This document shows, in pieces, positions 5,558-46,727 of a DNA stretch of 64,000 bases. Source of the DNA: Pelagibius marinus (GTDB lineage Bacteria > Pseudomonadota > Alphaproteobacteria > Kiloniellales > Kiloniellaceae); the NCBI RefSeq assembly GCF_014925385.1, contig NZ_JACSDK010000011.1, positions 1-64,000 of the forward strand, written 5' to 3'. The notes beneath the pieces were generated by a model, which was not told where the DNA came from, made no database searches, and was given only the letters and a program-made list of their open reading frames with translations. The first letter of the stretch is position 1. Each line of letters begins with the position of its first letter. Position numbers and translations under genes: made by a program.

Positions 5558-5739
5558 CTGTCATTGCGCTAGCGCAAGGCAGCGGCGGCGAATCCCTTGG
5601 ATGATGCCCCCATGTCTGAGGTCCAAGGTATTCCCCTTTTTCCAGAACCGCTGCGCTTTCTGCTCCGGCCCTTGCCGCTGTTCCCCCTGCGCCTCGCTTT
5701 GAACCGGGTGGTGGCGCGCTCTGCGGCGGAGCGTCCGGC
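5558..5739 (+). repeat. 182-bp direct repeat, copy 1 (ubiT promoter and 5' end)
   Basis: Positions 5558-5739 are repeated at 8939-9120 (constant offset 3381) with a single difference: C at 5721 versus T at 9102. The repeat covers the palindrome, the spacer, the ATG and about 42 codons of ubiT. Sequence identity stops abruptly on both sides. The two copies enclose an AraC-type regulator and an inverse-autotransporter-like gene. Confidence 0.97.
5564..5611 (+). promoter_or_regulatory. Duplicate FNR/CRP-type promoter in front of the ubiT fragment
   Basis: The palindrome TTGCGCTAGCGCAA (5564-5577) is centred exactly 41.5 bp before the ATG at 5612. GATGAT occupies -12 to -7 relative to that A. 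The layout is identical to the intact ubiT promoter (8945-8992). If active it would fire rightwards, antisense to the araC-type gene. Confidence 0.5.
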
Positions 5740-5776
5740 CGGGCTTTCCCACAACCCGTCAGGTCTTACACGATAG
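5612..5776 (+). pseudogene. Truncated ubiT copy (5' fragment)
   Basis: The reading frame starts MSEVQGIPLFPEPL exactly like the intact ubiT at 8993. It follows it for about 42 codons with one substitution (Phe to Ser, from the C/T difference at 5721), then leaves the repeat at 5739 and reads 12 unrelated codons to a TAG at 5774-5776. The 54-residue product lacks the SCP2-type lipid-binding domain of UbiT, so it is presumed non-functional. It is a by-product of the duplication that brackets 5740-8938. Confidence 0.85.
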
Positions 5777-5855
5777 CGGTTGATTCCCGAAGGCGACAAT
5801 TGCCGGTCTCGCAGGCCGCGGGACTTCCGGATCTCTCACCTGCGCTCGCCACCGG

Positions 5856-5883
5856 CGGAAAAGGAACCCGCTCGGGGCTCCTT
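5856..5883 (-). terminator. Probable Rho-independent terminator of the araC-type gene
   Basis: Read on the minus strand, GGAGCCC and GGGTTCC form a seven-pair stem (one G-T wobble) around a CGAGC loop, followed by TTTTCC. The stem overlaps the last bases of the AraC-type gene, whose stop is at 5885. The T-run is short, so efficiency is uncertain. Confidence 0.55.
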
Positions 5884-5884
5884 C

Positions 5885-6940
5885 CTATTGCTCGGGAGAC
5901 CGGGACCGGTCTGCGGCCTCCAGGTGTCCGCCATCCTCCGCCGCCGTCGTTTCCTGTCCGTCCGCGAGCTCGCGGAGGTAGCGCTTCGGCGGGGTCCCGT
6001 AGCGCTGGGTGAAGGCGTTGATGAAGTTGGTGACGTGCCTGTATCCGACCCGGTGGGCCACGACCTTCAGAGGAATATCCTCGGTTTCCAGGACCTGGCG
6101 GGCGTGCTCCAGGCGCTCATTGCGGAGCATTTCGAACGCGGTCATGCCGAACAGCTCGCGGAAGCCCGCGTTCAAGCGCCTTTCGCCCATTCCGGCCTCC
6201 GTGGCGATCTCGCTCAGGCTCGGCGGCTGGCGCATGTCGGCGATCAGGCGGTGGCGCGCTCGCGTGAGCCGCTGTCTTTCGTGGCGCGAAAGTCGGCTGT
6301 CGGTGCCGTCGTCTTCACGCGGGGAGCGCCGGACCATCTGTCCGATGTGATGCGCCGCGATCTCCAGGAGCGCGCCTTCGGTTTCGAGCCGGCGCAGCGG
6401 GCCCGTCAGCGGGCTCCGGAACAGGCGCCAGCCGAGCTTGCGCAACAGCGTTGTTGTGCGCAGCGGCCAATGCGGCGTCGTGTCCGCGGCGGCGCCGAAC
6501 AACCGGCCCAACTCCTCGGGAATGTCGCCGCCCAGCAGGCGCGCCATCACGATCCAGTCCGCCGACCACGCGATGTGCCGGATGGTCTGGCCCTCCGGCA
6601 GGCGGAATTCCGCCCAATCGTCGATCGCGCGGAAGGCGACTCCGTGTTGCGGATCGATGTCTATTTCCGGCGCGGGGTTGCCGGGAAGCTTCAGCGTAAG
6701 CTCGCCTTCGACGGTGAAATGAGAGCCCAGCCAGCCGGAGACGTCGGCCCGCGGCGTCACCGTCACGTCGCGATGGACCTTCGCCGTAGTCAGGTACAGG
6801 CGAACGCCATCCGACACTTCCAGCTTTTCGATTGCGGCGTCCCAGTTGTCGTCTTTGAGCTGCGCCACTTGGGCGACAGCGACGGTCTTACCCTCACCGT
6901 CGCTTTCCAACAGCCATTGATTGAACTTGTCTATGCCCAC
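5885..6940 (-). CDS. AraC/XylS-family transcriptional regulator (PchR-like)
   Basis: This 351-residue cytosolic regulator has an N-terminal sensory part (about 1-240) and a C-terminal AraC DNA-binding domain with two helix-turn-helix motifs: PPSLSEIATEAGMGERRL around residue 255 and IPLKVVAHRVGYRHVTNF around residue 300. The layout, with a long N-terminal region and no clear cupin motif, resembles siderophore-responsive PchR-type regulators; the ligand is unknown. The chosen start is GTG 6940 (VGIDKFNQWLL), since the upstream in-frame TTG at 6994 adds only a non-conserved basic tail. The gene lies inside the 3.2-kb segment bracketed by the 182-bp repeats and is divergent from the inverse-autotransporter-like gene, so it may control that gene. 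Confidence 0.82.
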   Translation of the reverse strand: MGIDKFNQWLLESDGEGKTVAVAQVAQLKDDNWDAAIEKLEVSDGVRLYLTTAKVHRDVTVTPRADVSGWLGSHFTVEGELTLKLPGNPAPEIDIDPQHGVAFRAIDDWAEFRLPEGQTIRHIAWSADWIVMARLLGGDIPEELGRLFGAAADTTPHWPLRTTTLLRKLGWRLFRSPLTGPLRRLETEGALLEIAAHHIGQMVRRSPREDDGTDSRLSRHERQRLTRARHRLIADMRQPPSLSEIATEAGMGERRLNAGFRELFGMTAFEMLRNERLEHARQVLETEDIPLKVVAHRVGYRHVTNFINAFTQRYGTPPKRYLRELADGQETTAAEDGGHLEAADRSRSPEQ

Positions 6941-7251
6941 GTCGCGTTTTCGGCTCCGCTTCAACCCCCCGGGAACCGCAACGCTACACGCCAATCCATG
7001 AACTGCGGCTTGCCTGTATTAATCCCAGGACCGGCGCGTGATGCAAGGCGTCGTCGTGTGACCTTTCTGCGCCCGCTCATATAAATCGGCCCCTCGTCCA
7101 TATATGCCGGCGCTCCGCTCAAGGCCCCCGCTTCGCTATCAAGAAAACGGCCGGCGGCGCGGCTTGGCAGGGGGCCAGGAACGGCCATTGCCGTTAACAG
7201 GCGCTAACCGGGTGCGGCCCGGGTGCGGCGGGGCATGAGGGGGAGCAAAGC
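6941..7251. other. Divergent intergenic region, araC-type gene / inverse autotransporter-like gene
   Basis: No gene was recognised in these 311 bp. The middle is less GC-rich than the surroundings and contains ATATAAAT and CATATATG stretches around 7079-7105 that could serve as promoter elements. The last 50 bp lead into the ATG at 7252, with GGGGGAG about 8 bp upstream. No clear operator repeat was found. Confidence 0.5.
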
Positions 7252-8868
7252 ATGAGGCTATCCAGGAAGCTTTCGGGGGCGATCGCGGCCGCCGGCCTGC
7301 TCGCGCTGTCCGGTTCGCCGGCGGCGGCGGACGACAAGTGGGGCGCGCACATCGACCTGGAGGGCAAGGCGGGGACGAAGCGCAACCTGGGCGAGGCGGA
7401 GATCTTCATACCGCTGGCGCAGAACGACGCCACGCTGTTCTTCGGCGATATCCGCACACGGCTCGACGACCGGGACTCGCGCGAGGGCAACGTCGGCCTC
7501 GGGCTGCGGCACATGCTGGGCGGCGGCTGGAACCTGGGCGGCTACGGCTACTTCGACCTGCGGCGCACGGAGAGCGGCCACTCCTACCAGCAACTCACCT
7601 TCGGCGCCGAGGCGCTGGGCGAGGACTTCGACCTGCGCGCCAATTCCTACTGGCCCGTCGGCAAGACGGTGAAGTCGCTGGACAGTCTCAACACGGCGAC
7701 CCTGTCGGGCTCGACGATCACCGTCCGGGCCGGCGAGGAGCACGCCTTGCGCGGCTTCGATGCCGAGGTCGGCTGGCGGCTGCCGGTCTTCGAGGCGGAG
7801 GGCCCCCTCGACCTCAGGCTCTACGCCGGCGGCTTCACCTTCTACGATCCCGACGACGGCGATGTGCCCGACGTGACGGGCCCGCGGCTGCGCGCCGAGT
7901 TCACCGCCTACGAGGTGCCCTATCTCTGGGACGGGGCGCGGCTGACCCTGGGCGCCGAGTGGCAGCACGACGAGGTGCGCGGCGGCCAGGGCTTCGCCAG
8001 CCTGCGCCTGCGCATCCCCCTGCAGCCGGAAAGGGAGCGCGCGCGCCGGCTGACCGCCCAGGAGCGGCGCATGACTGTCCCGGTGATCCGCGATGTCGAT
8101 ATCGTCGCCCAGGCCGGCGCCTTCGGCGCAGTGGAGACGGCGACCGAGACGGCGGACGGGCGCCCCCTCACCGTGCTGAGCAGTGCCTCCACCAGCGGCG
8201 CGGCCCTGCCGGCGGCGGTCGCCGCGGCCGGGGCGAACGCGACGGTGATCCTGTCGGGCACCTTCAACACGACCGCCGCCACGACGCTGCAGGACGGCCA
8301 GACTTTGATGGGGGCGGGGACGGTCACGGTGAAGACCCCGTCGGGCCGCACCGCGGCGCTTGCCACGCCGGCCGCCACCATCGCCGGCGCCATCACCGAC
8401 TGGACCGTCGCTATGGCGAACGACAGCACGCTCTCCGGCCTGACGGTCAGCAACACTAGCGGGATCACCACCGATGCGGTGCTGGTCGCCGGCGTCGACA
8501 ACGTCGCCATCCTCGACAACACCCTCACCGCCACCTCGACCAGCGGGGATGAGGCGGCAGCGATCGCCACGGCCGGCAACATCGACACGCTGCTGATCCG
8601 CGGCAACACGCTGACGGCAACGGACGCGCGTACTGGCGGTATCACGTACGGCATTTTCTTGAGCGCTGGCGGCACGACGGAAACCAACGTCACCGTAGCC
8701 GGCAACACTTTCAGCTCGTCCGGCGGGGTTGCTAACTTCACAATCAGCGCCAACGGCACGGCCTTCGTGACCGCCGCCTCCACCGGCAACATTATCATCA
8801 GCGGCACCTGCAGCGGTGGTGGCTCCACCGGTTCGGTCAGCTTCACCAACGGCTCGACCTGCCCATGA
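7252..8868 (+). CDS. Inverse autotransporter-like (intimin/invasin-type) beta-barrel protein with Ser/Thr-rich passenger
   Basis: This is a 538-residue outer-membrane protein. A Sec signal peptide (about 1-26, cleaved near SPAAA-DD) is followed by a beta-barrel region (about 27-270) with the typical start WGAHIDLEGKAGTKR, glycine-rich amphipathic strands (GLGLRHMLGGGWNLGGYGYFD) and a repeated pattern of aromatic strand ends. Residues about 290-538 form an Ala/Thr/Ser/Gly-rich passenger with short repeats around IAGAITDW, LDNTLTAT and IRGNTLTAT, suggestive of a parallel beta-helix. The C-terminal tail contains the only two cysteines (CSGGGSTG ... STCP), which could form a disulfide. Intimins place the barrel N-terminally, as here; no LysM or Ig-like domain is seen. 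A role in surface adhesion is inferred. Confidence 0.75.
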   Translation: MRLSRKLSGAIAAAGLLALSGSPAAADDKWGAHIDLEGKAGTKRNLGEAEIFIPLAQNDATLFFGDIRTRLDDRDSREGNVGLGLRHMLGGGWNLGGYGYFDLRRTESGHSYQQLTFGAEALGEDFDLRANSYWPVGKTVKSLDSLNTATLSGSTITVRAGEEHALRGFDAEVGWRLPVFEAEGPLDLRLYAGGFTFYDPDDGDVPDVTGPRLRAEFTAYEVPYLWDGARLTLGAEWQHDEVRGGQGFASLRLRIPLQPERERARRLTAQERRMTVPVIRDVDIVAQAGAFGAVETATETADGRPLTVLSSASTSGAALPAAVAAAGANATVILSGTFNTTAATTLQDGQTLMGAGTVTVKTPSGRTAALATPAATIAGAITDWTVAMANDSTLSGLTVSNTSGITTDAVLVAGVDNVAILDNTLTATSTSGDEAAAIATAGNIDTLLIRGNTLTATDARTGGITYGIFLSAGGTTETNVTVAGNTFSSSGGVANFTISANGTAFVTAASTGNIIISGTCSGGGSTGSVSFTNGSTCP

Positions 8869-8938
8869 GGGGTGCGGCGGCCGGCGGCGGCACTTTCAGC
8901 CTCTCACCCTTCCAATTCGAACCGCAGCTGGGAACGGC

Positions 8939-9120
8939 CTGTCATTGCGCTAGCGCAAGGCAGCGGCGGCGAATCCCTTGGATGATGCCCCCATGTCTGA
9001 GGTCCAAGGTATTCCCCTTTTTCCAGAACCGCTGCGCTTTCTGCTCCGGCCCTTGCCGCTGTTCCCCCTGCGCCTCGCTTTGAACCGGGTGGTGGCGCGC
9101 TTTGCGGCGGAGCGTCCGGC
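8939..9120 (+). repeat. 182-bp direct repeat, copy 2 (intact ubiT promoter and 5' end)
   Basis: This is the partner of 5558-5739, with 181 of 182 bases identical. In this copy the sequence continues into a full ubiT, so copy 2 is the functional end. The first base outside the repeat on the right is G at 9121, versus C at 5740. Confidence 0.97.
8945..8992 (+). promoter_or_regulatory. Predicted class-II FNR/CRP-family promoter of ubiTUV, leaderless start
   Basis: The perfect 14-bp palindrome TTGCGCTAGCGCAA (8945-8958) has its centre between 8951 and 8952, which is -41.5 if transcription starts at the ubiT ATG (8993). GATGAT at 8981-8986 then falls exactly at -12 to -7 (4 of 6 matches to TATAAT). 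No Shine-Dalgarno sequence precedes the ATG, fitting a leaderless mRNA. The half-site TTGCG differs from the classical FNR TTGAT, so which CRP/FNR member binds is open. Confidence 0.6.
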
Positions 9121-9550
9121 GATCTTCCGCCGACTCGGCAGTCACGCCGAAAAGGTCTACCTCATCGACGCCGTCGACCTTCCCTTCATCTTCCGCCTGC
9201 GCCCCTCGGCGGAGCGGCCGTCCATCGATCTCTGCCGCCGTGCGGTCTCGGGGGCGCGCCTGGGGCCGTGGGACGCGCGCATTGCCGGCCCTCTGGCGGC
9301 GCTGTTGGGCATGATCCACGGCAGTTTCGACGGCGATGCCCTGTTCTTTTCCCGCGACATCGTCGTCGAAGGGGACACCGAGGCCGTTCTCGCCCTGCGC
9401 AATGCCCTCGACGACGCGGAAATCGACTTGCTGTCCGAAGCCGCCAGACTCCTGGGCCCGGCCGGTGGCGTCGTGGAGCGCGTCGGGCGCGGTGTTCTCT
9501 CCGAGGCCGGCCGCCTCACCGGCGTCAGCCTGGTCCGGGCGGAGAGCTAG
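8993..9550 (+). CDS. ubiT: Ubiquinone biosynthesis accessory factor UbiT (SCP2 domain)
   Basis: This 185-residue protein has an SCP2-type sterol/lipid-carrier domain. In E. coli, UbiT works with UbiU and UbiV in O2-independent ubiquinone synthesis, probably binding prenylated intermediates. Residues about 45-150 contain the SCP2 core, including IFRLRPS, GDALFFSRDIVVEGDTEAVLALRN and the Asp/Glu-rich region after it. The N-terminal 45 residues are Leu/Pro-rich and shared with the truncated copy at 5612. The ATG at 8993 is preferred over an in-frame TTG at 8978 because the protein aligns from MSEVQG and the promoter geometry places the transcript start on this A. It is first of three genes; ubiU follows after 2 bp. 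Confidence 0.88.
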   Translation: MSEVQGIPLFPEPLRFLLRPLPLFPLRLALNRVVARFAAERPAIFRRLGSHAEKVYLIDAVDLPFIFRLRPSAERPSIDLCRRAVSGARLGPWDARIAGPLAALLGMIHGSFDGDALFFSRDIVVEGDTEAVLALRNALDDAEIDLLSEAARLLGPAGGVVERVGRGVLSEAGRLTGVSLVRAES

Positions 9551-9552
9551 GC

Positions 9553-10557
9553 ATGGAGGGCAGGAGAGAGGGCGCCAGGCTTGAACTCGTCTGCCCGGCC
9601 GGCACGCCCGCGGCCCTGCGGGCGGCGGTCGAGGCCGGGGCCGACTGCGTCTACTGCGGCTTCAGGGACGAAACCAACGCCCGCAACTTCCCCGGCCTCA
9701 ACTTCTCCCCGGAGGAGCTGGCGGAGTCGATCGACTACGCCCATGAGCGCGGCGCGCGGGTCCTGGTCGCCATCAACACCTTTCCCCGCGCCGGTGCCGA
9801 GGAAATCTGGCACCGCGCCGTCGACACCGCCGCGCAGCTGCGCGCCGATGCCGTCATCCTGGCGGACATGGGCCTCCTCGCCTACACCGCCGAGCGGCAC
9901 CCGGACCTGCGGCGCCATCTCTCGGTCCAGGCGGCGGCGGCCAACGCCCAGGCCATAGAGTTCTACGTCGAGGCCTTTGGCGTCCGCCGCGTGGTCCTGC
10001 CACGCGTCCTGACGGTGCAGGAGATCGCCGCCATCAACGCGGCGGTGTCTTGCGAGACCGAGGTCTTCGTCTTCGGCGGACTCTGCGTCATGGCCGAAGG
10101 GCGTTGCGCGCTGTCTTCCTACGCCACCGGCAAGTCGCCGAACATGCACGGAGTCTGTTCGCCGGCCAGCCATGTGCGCTATCAGGAAGAAGACGGCGAG
10201 CTGGTTTCCCGCCTCGGGAACTTCACCATCGACCGGGTGCCCGCCGGGGAGCCGGCGCCCTATCCGACCCTCTGCAAGGGGTGCTTCAGCGCCGGCGGCA
10301 AGCGCGGCCATGTCTTCGAGGACCCCGTCAGCCTGGACGCGGCCACGCTGCTGCCGCAACTTGCCGAGGCCGGCGTGACCGCGCTGAAGATCGAAGGGCG
10401 CCAGCGCAGCCGCTCCTACACCCAGGCGGTGGTCGCGAGCTTTCGCCGCGCCGTCGACGCCCAGGCCGAAGGCCGCGCCATCCCCGCGGGCGAACTGCGG
10501 CGCCTGAGCGAGGGTCAGACGACGACCGCCGGCGCCTACCGCAAGACCTGGCGCTAG
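9553..10557 (+). CDS. ubiU: Ubiquinone biosynthesis protein UbiU (U32 peptidase family, 4Fe-4S)
   Basis: This 334-residue member of the U32 family acts with UbiV as the O2-independent hydroxylation module of anaerobic ubiquinone synthesis. The start ELVCPAGTPAALRAAVEAGAD is typical. Four cysteines, C178, C185, C202 and C241, have the same spacing (7, 17, 39) as the iron-sulfur ligands C169, C176, C193 and C232 of E. coli UbiU, so cluster binding is well supported. KIEGRQRS near residue 280 is the family signature. The ATG at 9553 follows the ubiT stop by 2 bp. The cytosolic UbiUV complex is assembled from this protein and the next one. Confidence 0.95.
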   Translation: MEGRREGARLELVCPAGTPAALRAAVEAGADCVYCGFRDETNARNFPGLNFSPEELAESIDYAHERGARVLVAINTFPRAGAEEIWHRAVDTAAQLRADAVILADMGLLAYTAERHPDLRRHLSVQAAAANAQAIEFYVEAFGVRRVVLPRVLTVQEIAAINAAVSCETEVFVFGGLCVMAEGRCALSSYATGKSPNMHGVCSPASHVRYQEEDGELVSRLGNFTIDRVPAGEPAPYPTLCKGCFSAGGKRGHVFEDPVSLDAATLLPQLAEAGVTALKIEGRQRSRSYTQAVVASFRRAVDAQAEGRAIPAGELRRLSEGQTTTAGAYRKTWR

Positions 10558-10586: not shown

Positions 10587-11504
10587 ATGACCCAGCTGAC
10601 ACTCGGGCCGCTGCTGTTCAACTGGCCGGCGGAGCGCTGGAGCGACTTCTACGCCCGCATCGCCGACGAGGCGCCGCTGGACCGTGTCTGCCTGGGCGAG
10701 GTCGTCTGCTCCAAGCGCCTGCCGTTTTACGCCGACCGCATTCCGGAAGCCATCGAGCGGCTGCAGCGCGGCGGCAAGACCGTCGTGCTGTCCTCCCTGG
10801 CGCTGGTCACCCTGGCCCGCGAACAGCGGCTCTGTGCCGATCTGGCCGCCGGCGAAGACTTCGACGTCGAGATCAACGACCTGACGATGCTCGCTCATCT
10901 GGCGGCGGACCGGGACTTCGCGGTCGGGCCGCTGGTCAATGTCTACAACGAAGGCACGCTCGCCTTCCTCGCAAGTCGCGGCGCCCGCCACGTCTGCCTG
11001 CCGCCCGAGCTGCCGCTGGCCTCCGTGGCGACCCTGGCCGCCGCCGGCAAGACGCGGGGAATCGCGACGGAGGTCTGGGCCTTCGGGCGCCTGCCGCTGG
11101 CGATTTCCGGGCGCTGCTATCACGCCCGGGTGCACGGCCTGGCCAAGGACTCCTGCCAGTTCGTCTGCGGCGAGGATCCCGACGGCCTGCCGGTGGAAAC
11201 CCTGGACGGCGAGGACTTTCTGGCCATCAACGGCGTGCAGACGCTGTCCTTCGCCTATGCCGGCCTGCTCGGCGATATCGAGGTCCTTGAGGCGGCCGGG
11301 GTGGCGGCGCTGCGCCTTTCGCCCCAGGACTGCGACATGGTGGCGGTGGCGCGCCTGTTCCGGGAAACCCTCGACGGACGTCTTGCACCGGAGGCCGCGC
11401 AGGAGGCGCTGGCAGGCGACCTGCCTGAGATCGTCTTCGCCAACGGGTTTATCGCCGGGCGGCCCGGCGCGGAAGCCGCGGGGCACGGCTGGTCTGCCGC
11501 CTGA
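10587..11504 (+). CDS. ubiV: Ubiquinone biosynthesis protein UbiV (U32 family, 4Fe-4S)
   Basis: This is the 305-residue partner of UbiU. The start MTQLTLGPLLFNWPAERW is characteristic. Candidate cluster ligands are C41 (EVVCSKR) and the trio C177, C190 and C194 (SGRCYHARVHG ... SCQFVCGED). The 13 and 4 spacing of the trio equals that of E. coli UbiV C180, C193 and C197. The ATG at 10587 has GGAAGGAGAG eight bases upstream; the frame is open upstream through ubiU but that part is out of register with homology. The three genes ubiT-ubiU-ubiV form a tight unit, and their presence says the organism makes ubiquinone when oxygen is scarce, for example for anaerobic respiration. Confidence 0.95.
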   Translation: MTQLTLGPLLFNWPAERWSDFYARIADEAPLDRVCLGEVVCSKRLPFYADRIPEAIERLQRGGKTVVLSSLALVTLAREQRLCADLAAGEDFDVEINDLTMLAHLAADRDFAVGPLVNVYNEGTLAFLASRGARHVCLPPELPLASVATLAAAGKTRGIATEVWAFGRLPLAISGRCYHARVHGLAKDSCQFVCGEDPDGLPVETLDGEDFLAINGVQTLSFAYAGLLGDIEVLEAAGVAALRLSPQDCDMVAVARLFRETLDGRLAPEAAQEALAGDLPEIVFANGFIAGRPGAEAAGHGWSAA

Positions 11505-45608: not shown

Positions 45609-46727
45609 ATGCACGGTACACGCCCTTTTCGCGCTGACCACGTCGGCAGTTTTCTGCGCCCCGAGCGTCTCGTCGAGGCCCGCGGGCGCCATGCCGCCGG
45701 TGACCTGAGCGCCGAGGCCCTGCGCGAGGTCGAGGACGAATGTATTCGCGAACTGGTCGCCAAGCAGGAAGAAGTCGGCCTGAAAGGCATCACCGACGGA
45801 GAGTTCCGCCGCACCTTCTTCCACGTGGACTTTCTGGAGCGCCTGGAAGGCGTGACCGTGACCTACGGCGAGTTCACGGCGGCCTTTCGCCGGGACGACG
45901 GCACCGAGGTGGGCTTCCGCCCGCCGACCATGCACGTCGAGAAGCCGATCCGCCACGTGGCGTCGATCCAGGGCGCGGACTACGACTACCTGGCGAGCGT
46001 CGTCAGCCGCACGCCCAAGGTCTGCATCCCGGCGCCTTCCATGCTGCACTTCCGCGGCGGCCGCCAGGCGATCTCGGAAGAGGTCTATCCCGACCTGGAG
46101 GCCTTCTACGCCGACCTCACCGCCGCCTACCGGGCCGAGATCAACGACCTGGCGGCGCGCGGTTGCCGCTACCTGCAGATGGACGACACCAACCTGGCCT
46201 ACCTCTGCGACCCGGCGATCCGCGAGCGGACGGCGGCGCGCGGCGATGATCCCGACGAGCTGACCCATCTCTATTGCCGCCTGGTGAACGAGGCGATCAA
46301 GGACCGCCCCGACGACATGACGGTCTGCGTCCACCTCTGCCGCGGCAACTTCAAGAGCGCCTGGGTGGCCCAGGGCGGCTACGAGCCGGTGGCGGAGATC
46401 CTCTTCAACGAGATGGGCATCGACGGCTTCTTCCTGGAGTACGACGACGAGCGCTCCGGCGACTTCGCGCCCCTGCGCTTCATGCCCAAGGGCAAGCGCG
46501 TGGTCCTGGGGCTGATGAGCTCCAAGCACCCGGCGGTGGAATCCAAGGACGAGCTGAAGCAGCGTATCGACGAGGCGACGCAGTACGTGGCGCTCGACCA
46601 GTGCGCCCTCAGCCACCAGTGCGGCTTCTCCTCCACCGCGCACGGCAACCAGCTTTCCGAGGACGACCAGTGGAAGAAGCTGGCGCGCTGCGTCGACGTC
46701 GCGGGCGAAGTCTGGGGCGAGACCTGA
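45609..46727 (+). CDS. Cobalamin-independent methionine synthase-like protein (MetE C-terminal family)
   Basis: This 372-residue single-domain protein of the MetE/YxjG type carries a (beta/alpha)8 barrel with zinc ligands in VCVHLCRGNF (His-x-Cys, about 238-247) and SHQCGFSS (Cys, about 337-344). RADHVGSFLRP near the start and QMDDTNLAYLCDP near 195 are typical of the stand-alone family. Related proteins transfer methyl groups to homocysteine or a thiol from various donors. It lacks the N-terminal half of full MetE. AGGAGG lies seven bases before ATG 45609; the frame upstream runs into the minisatellite. Its real donor and acceptor are unknown. Confidence 0.87.
   Translation: MHGTRPFRADHVGSFLRPERLVEARGRHAAGDLSAEALREVEDECIRELVAKQEEVGLKGITDGEFRRTFFHVDFLERLEGVTVTYGEFTAAFRRDDGTEVGFRPPTMHVEKPIRHVASIQGADYDYLASVVSRTPKVCIPAPSMLHFRGGRQAISEEVYPDLEAFYADLTAAYRAEINDLAARGCRYLQMDDTNLAYLCDPAIRERTAARGDDPDELTHLYCRLVNEAIKDRPDDMTVCVHLCRGNFKSAWVAQGGYEPVAEILFNEMGIDGFFLEYDDERSGDFAPLRFMPKGKRVVLGLMSSKHPAVESKDELKQRIDEATQYVALDQCALSHQCGFSSTAHGNQLSEDDQWKKLARCVDVAGEVWGET

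Follow-up and report, generated by a model that had tools for sequence, protein, structure and literature searches.

A CRP/FNR-type box at -41.5 from the start codon suggests class-II activation of a leaderless ubiTUV operon in Pelagibius marinus

Taken as a whole, the region upstream of ubiT in Pelagibius marinus is best explained by class-II activation in which the ubiT RNA would start at, or 1 to 4 nt before, the ATG codon, a reading to which we assign a probability of roughly 0.78 on the basis of sequence comparison. Within the window studied (the whole stretch of 64,000 nucleotides that was analysed), the 14-bp palindrome TTGCGCTAGCGCAA would be the single binding site of an activator of the CRP/FNR superfamily at a class-II promoter. 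This promoter would drive ubiT, ubiU and ubiV at low oxygen and/or in the presence of nitric oxide, RNA polymerase starting at the A of the ubiT ATG or, in some relatives, a few bases upstream. UbiT would then be translated from a leaderless mRNA without a Shine-Dalgarno (SD) sequence, and the downstream ubiU and ubiV would be translated from ordinary ribosome sites.

Table 1. Features of the ubiT region and of the DNA directly upstream (positions in the window)
Feature	Position	Strand	Evidence or remark
Left copy of the 182-bp duplication	5558..5739	+	14-mer at 5564-5577, -10 region and first ubiT codons
Truncated ubiT frame of the left copy, 54 aa	5612..5776	+	
3.2-kb insertion between rhodanese gene and ubiT	5740..8938		Absent between these genes in the nearest relative (G004)
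AraC-family gene in the 3.2-kb insertion	5885-6994	minus	
Inverse-autotransporter beta-domain gene in the 3.2-kb insertion	7252-8868	plus	
Predicted activator box, CRP/FNR-type (NnrR-like), 14-bp palindrome TTGCGCTAGCGCAA	8945..8958	+	Centre 8951.5, i.e. -41.5 from the ATG; identical box in G004
Candidate -10 element GATGAT	8981..8986	+	At -12 to -7; 4/6 match to TATAAT; register seen in relatives
Predicted transcript start (A of the ubiT ATG)	8993..8993	+	Inferred from spacing, SD energies and -10 register
ubiT	8993..9550	+	NCBIfam NF047962 UbiT, 69.8 bits (cut-off 46.9)
ubiU	9553..10557	+	NCBIfam NF047963 UbiU, 520.8 bits (cut-off 440)
ubiV, with a clear SD (aaggag) in front	10587..11504	+	NCBIfam NF047965 UbiV, 366.8 bits (cut-off 275); SD -9.4

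UbiT, UbiU and UbiV are encoded by adjacent genes, the arrangement that marks the UbiTUV operon of O2-independent ubiquinone synthesis (Table 1). A sequence-only reading of this DNA had placed the palindrome exactly at -41.5 from the ubiT ATG (8995 being the last base of that codon), with GATGAT at -12 to -7, and had seen no ribosome site before the ATG. The coordinates agree with this geometry, and the pairing with the anti-SD (calculated for -21 to -4, in kcal/mol) is -3.1 for ubiT against -6.6 for ubiU and -9.4 for ubiV of the same operon.

A scan of the 64-kb window for the 14-mer, allowing up to two mismatches, gave two matches, both exact, against an average of 0.34 in shuffled versions of the window, where two matches were reached in 4 of 100 shuffles. 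TTG-N8-CAA occurs five times in the 64 kb, and symmetric 5-bp half-sites are seen only in the two copies of TTGCGCTAGCGCAA. Extended to the 5.44-Mb genome, as the sequence-only reading had proposed, the search finds the exact 14-mer in two places, 5564 and 8945; there is thus a second copy, but it is not independent because it lies inside the 182-bp duplicate of the ubiT 5' end, and we rejected it as evidence of a regulon. The more general pattern TTGCG-N4-CGCAA is present at 7 places in the genome, compared with 2 for the reversed control. The other five of these lie inside open reading frames and were discarded as promoter boxes, so that among symmetric sites of the own genome only ubiT and its duplicate carry the pattern outside reading frames. 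Across eight genomes of the genus the pattern occurs 4 to 8 times each, a number that does not clearly exceed that of its reversed control (0 to 10). The palindrome was also considered as a terminator hairpin and discarded, there being no T run 3' of it.

The distance between box and start codon was then compared among ubiT loci. In a first survey UbiT was matched in 27 of 58 genomes (own genome included), and 26 loci, among them the window's own, were measured, L034-L036 being left out. G004, the nearest relative and a member of the same genus (UbiT 84% identical), has the identical box at -42.5, and two genomes of another family (G053, G047) have TTGATCTC(C/A)ATCAA, with half-site TTGAT, at exactly -41.5. 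More distant UbiT genes have boxes mostly at about -65 to -99 from the ATG and in two cases at about -220; four loci (L012, L014, L017, L025) had no box at that cut.

A larger set of 81 ubiT starts comprised the best 80 of 417 related contig stretches together with the window's own genome (G000) and G004, minus L123, for which no start codon was found; start codons were picked by alignment, with ATG preferred, in near and far groups alike. Within this best-80-of-417 set, 68 of the 81 starts have a box scoring at least 15: the near distances are -41.5 (15 loci), -42.5 (5), -43.5 (2), -44.5 (5) and -45.5 (1), and 40 far boxes lie at -54.5 to -107.5. None of these 68 loci has a box between -41 and -20, which gives the distribution a sharp edge at -41.5. 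With a score cut of 14, 69 of the 81 are boxed, 28 near (-41.5 to -45.5) and 41 far (-54.5 or beyond), and 12 have none; one of these 12, Rhodoblastus L084, has a degenerate TTAACCATTGTTAA at -40.5. Conservation of the spacing in relatives had been set beforehand as a test that could refute the proposal, and its outcome does not refute it: site and spacing are kept to within 4 nt in 28 of the 69 boxed loci (the nearest relative among them), as expected of class-II promoters of orthologues, and the other 41 show ordinary distances.

The near set includes Rhodoblastus and its relatives, Beijerinckiaceae, Kiloniellaceae, Aurantimonas, Afifella, Mesorhizobium, Nitratireductor, Brucella endophytica, Rhabdaerophilum, Siculibacillus and Rhodoplanes, and 36 of the 41 far rows fall, with two rows lacking a box, in a Paracoccaceae/Roseobacteraceae-type clade. 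On a tree with the full-length UbiT of G000, 18 of the 41 far rows and 8 added family rows, the near label changes 7 times against a mean of 21.5 for shuffled labels, and relatedness therefore explains much of the near count. The exact -41.5 spacing is found in three separate clades and does not represent fifteen independent events: the own lineage with Mesorhizobium and Nitratireductor (3 rows), Kiloniellaceae (2 rows) and Rhodoblastaceae/Beijerinckiaceae and allies (10 rows). In the Siculibacillus group one locus has a similar box at -44.5 and three have it at distances of -81.5 to -97.5, and some near loci have other in-frame ATG codons closer to the box (for example L093 at -31.5 and L096 at -34.5).

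In two Rhodoblastus acidophilus strains (L062, L065; about 160 bases upstream of ubiT) some 105 nt more separate the ubiT ATG from the box and the -10 region, and strain DSM 137 of this species (L064) keeps -41.5, so that these strains are a predicted natural pair of leadered and leaderless forms. In a sample spread evenly over the class, UbiT was matched in 41 of 385 genomes; 29 non-own loci were scanned for boxes (3 of them failed the motif finder) and two had boxes at -41.5 or -42.5, namely L137, whose boxes are those of L078 and which probably stems from one and the same genome, and L155, where a further ATG stands at -60.5. A plasmid search with UbiT returned matches below 60% identity.

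Ribosome-site strength differs between the near and far loci of the best-80-of-417 set. Near ubiT genes (n=28) have a mean SD energy of -2.85 kcal/mol against -3.49 for shuffled sequences, that is, no excess, and 4 of the 28 reach -6 or better, whereas far ubiT genes (n=41) have a mean of -5.81 against -3.88, with 21 of the 41 at -6 or better (near versus far, Mann-Whitney p=1.4e-4). The ubiU and ubiV genes of the near loci pair well, at -6.39 (n=28) and -6.50 (n=27), values taken without a shuffled control, and these genomes therefore use SD signals. Of the 28 near loci 26 start with ATG, compared with 19 of the 41 far ones (Fisher p=7e-5). Of the features expected of a leaderless gene, the AUG start is found here, and the SD signal is absent as a group mean.

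Counting from the box centre plus 41.5, T at -12 is shared by 75% of the near loci and 85% of the far ones, G at -14 occurs in 79% of near loci, and A at -11 is found in 93% of far versus 39% of near loci. A -10 element at fixed spacing, as class-II activation predicts, is seen in the aligned 28 + 41 ubiT loci and in 24 hemN loci (see below), and from this shared register the promoter geometry looks alike in near and far groups. What differs, judging from the alignments, looks to be whether or not the start codon falls on the predicted +1. GATGAT is itself a weak -10 element, without the T at -12 that is usual in the near group, and the extended -10 motif TGnTA, of which G-14 and T-12 are common in that group, is absent from the window's own sequence.

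These data also bear on a rather unlikely variant, in which class-II activation is real but transcription starts a few bases upstream, giving a very short leader, and the ribosome would still be guided by a stretch that weakly resembles an SD, GGAT here and AGGAT in G004. It would accommodate the 13 of 28 near loci in the best-80-of-417 set that lie at -42.5 to -45.5 as well as G004, where TTAGGATG precedes the ATG and can be read as a weak SD, but the commonest distance is exactly -41.5, where the distribution has its sharp edge, the mean SD energy is not above that of shuffles and a leader of 1 to 4 nt is too short to hold an SD and its spacer.

The layout is repeated at hemN, which encodes the O2-independent coproporphyrinogen III oxidase (TIGR00538, 450 bits against a cut-off of 325). 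A pattern search in the own genome found TTGACCTCCGTCAA at -42.5 from the hemN ATG. The HemN protein was matched in 56 of 58 genomes and the best 30 loci were examined: 24 of the 30 (own locus included) have a box at -41.5 (15), -42.5 (6) or -43.5 (3) from an in-frame ATG, L191-L193 having three in-frame ATGs each, and six do not fit (L186, with a GTG at -45.5; L202, L205, L208, L210; and L211, at -40.5). Fitting loci have T at -12 in 79%, A at -11 in 62% and T at -7 in 83%, and the SD energy has a mean of -3.39 against -3.52 for shuffles and a median of -4.8; this SD and -10 table takes in L212 (TTGTC/TTGAT box), which was uncounted in the first hemN box tally. The own hemN locus (L180, contig C13 of G000, 45981-46032) combines an FNR-type box with a weak SD. 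Comparison between genomes thus lends support to the activator-dependent start at the ATG that had been proposed from the single sequence, through the edge in spacing, the lack of an SD, the -10 register and the hemN layout.

The stretch 5558-8938 consists of an insertion with an AraC-family and an inverse-autotransporter gene, on both sides of which the ubiT 5' end stands as a 182-bp direct repeat, 5558-5739 repeating 8939-9120 with 1 mismatch in 182. The insertion looks recent, since it is absent between the rhodanese gene and ubiT in G004 and its adhesin-like protein is found in 1 of 8 genus genomes, only the window's own. The truncated ubiT frame of the left repeat, which bears a box, could be co-induced.

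The insertion is relevant to a further explanation, namely that the box serves for repression or some other function and that ubiT is transcribed from farther upstream or, in relatives, by read-through from the rhodanese gene, whose 3' end lies directly upstream of ubiT in G004. We judge this very unlikely: here the 3.2-kb insertion parts the rhodanese gene from ubiT and yet left the sequence intact from a point 6 bp upstream of the box, the SD is weak for a longer mRNA, the -10 register fits class II, and counterparts are described as activated by NnrR or FnrL in the available portions of PMC6710368 and PMC2908626. That palindrome and spacing are a coincidence in a GC-rich genome, where TTGCG-N4-CGCAA also occurs inside genes and genus counts do not clearly exceed the reversed control, has next to no likelihood, considering that another species has an identical box and that other families keep the spacing with half-sites that differ.

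Under the preferred reading of class-II activation at the start codon, the protein that reads the box has to be considered, and the sequence-only reading had suggested that a CRP/FNR member other than FNR may be involved. Both half-sites are TTGCG and not the FNR-type TTGAT-N4-ATCAA of an FNR regulon. TTGCG-N4-CGCAA is the NnrR consensus in the available part of PMC1274295, where the alphaproteobacterial NnrR regulon consensus ctTTGcgnnnncgCAAag matches the palindrome of the window. The suggestion fits the NnrR-type half-sites of the box at ubiT, but the search of G000 and G004 (assemblies about 98% complete) found no NnrR orthologue, the best matches being 24-27% identical to a Mesorhizobium NnrR-type query. 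The several boxed promoters expected of an NnrR regulon were likewise not found among the 7 genomic places recovered in the search for symmetric sites. The NnrR targets named in the same source are nir, nor, nos and nnrS, joined in some species by hemN. G005, of the same genus, has a 42% match to the NnrR-type query with the same LHTVSR helix; this gene (L244, 1411-2245; helix TGTTLHTVSR) is followed by TTGCGCCAACGCAA, starting 23 bases past its stop codon, which suggests that NnrR and its box existed in the genus.

The own genome has five CRP/FNR proteins, all of which, from the alignment, keep the recognition glutamate. L037 is an FNR with the cysteine cluster, as an FNR regulon requires (FnrL model 186.5 bits, below the cut-off of 300); L040 clusters with cytochrome-cd1 nitrite-reductase-type, NosR-like and COX1-family genes; and L041 adjoins narG and a NarK-type transporter gene. 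Four genomes outside the genus with a TTGCG box at ubiT (three near, and Rubellimicrobium, far) have an NnrR-type protein with histidine at the FNR glutamate position (L226, L227, L228, L239), the second Rubellimicrobium protein, L225, having phenylalanine. This link between NnrR and TTGCG is weakened because Afifella has histidine NnrR-type proteins with a TTGAG/TTGAT box. Candidate readers of the TTGCG box in this genome are L037, the FNR, and L040, the regulator in the nir cluster. For L040 this role found no support, orthologues 52-70% identical being present where the boxes are TTGAT or TTGAG (genomes of Aurantimonas, Afifella and Kiloniellaceae); none was found in the four tested TTGCG genomes outside the genus, and G004, which has the TTGCG box, has one that is 91% identical. 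The 17 kb around L040 contain four TTG-N8-CAA sites, two of them TTGAC palindromes and none TTGCG.

In the UbiT tree G000 and G004 group with Phyllobacteriaceae/Afifella rows (96/94), apart from the genus members G002 and G007, which are on long branches; this fits a joint acquisition of operon and box, and the NnrR-type TTGCG half-site probably arrived with the ubiTUV operon from a Hyphomicrobiales-like lineage. Two clusters lie on contig C9 of the own genome (L049, L050), one of the cytochrome-cd1 nitrite-reductase type and one with narG; both include a CRP/FNR regulator as well as boxes of the TTGAC or TTGAT type, and the organism is therefore probably a denitrifier.

The closest published parallel comes from the accessible portion of PMC6710368, in which the box of Bradyrhizobium diazoefficiens bll7628 has its first base at -48 from the annotated start, that is, its centre at -41.5. 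There, bll7628 and bll7627 are up 10.1-fold and 75.3-fold without oxygen and down 10.3-fold and 15-fold in an nnrR mutant. Read from their annotation, bll7628 (sterol-binding) is apparently UbiT and bll7627 (a U32 protein) apparently a UbiU/V protein, and the two systems share apparently the same gene type and a CRP/FNR-type box at the same distance. They differ in that the bll7628 box, TTGTTCCCGCTCAA, is not that of the window and that Bradyrhizobium needs NnrR, which was not found in this genome. FNR control of anaerobic ubiUV in E. coli, mentioned in the sequence-only reading, agrees with PMC10470549, which in the part available describes Fnr activation of the O2-independent ubiquinone genes ubiT and ubiUV; E. 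coli differs in that ubiT and ubiUV each have their own promoter within a single intergenic region, with the F2 site 33 nt upstream of a described ubiT start. In Rhodobacter sphaeroides, the excerpt of PMC2908626 includes RSP0465/0466 among the FnrL targets and lists a hemN site with one half equal to TTGCG.

The term leaderless occurs in neither PMC6710368 nor PMC10470549. Leaderless mRNAs of Bradyrhizobium japonicum, according to the part of PMC4842269 available, include 192 starts exactly at annotated start codons and have an extended -10 motif TGnTA, which resembles the G-14 and T-12 of the near ubiT group; that part does not connect them with control of ubiT or hemN by FNR or NnrR. For Magnetospirillum the leaderless share is given as 5% (PMC9549626, in part). 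The view that a leaderless ubiT had not been described agrees with a survey of part of the open-licence literature, which yielded no report of a leaderless ubiT or hemN.

Leaderless mRNAs have already been mapped in alphaproteobacteria, but little is known of the regulons that use them or of the reasons for it. One named activator family and its fixed geometry provide a rule by which leaderless genes would be predictable from the sequence alone. We hold it an even chance that this is a conserved leaderless anaerobic regulon, in which FNR/NnrR-type promoters are built onto the start codons of ubiT, hemN and possibly more genes in several alphaproteobacterial families, yielding SD-free mRNAs, the activator being exchangeable (TTGAT, TTGAC, TTGCG) and the fusion of promoter and start codon being kept. 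The findings suggest that anaerobic ubiquinone and haem synthesis may use a different route of translation initiation.
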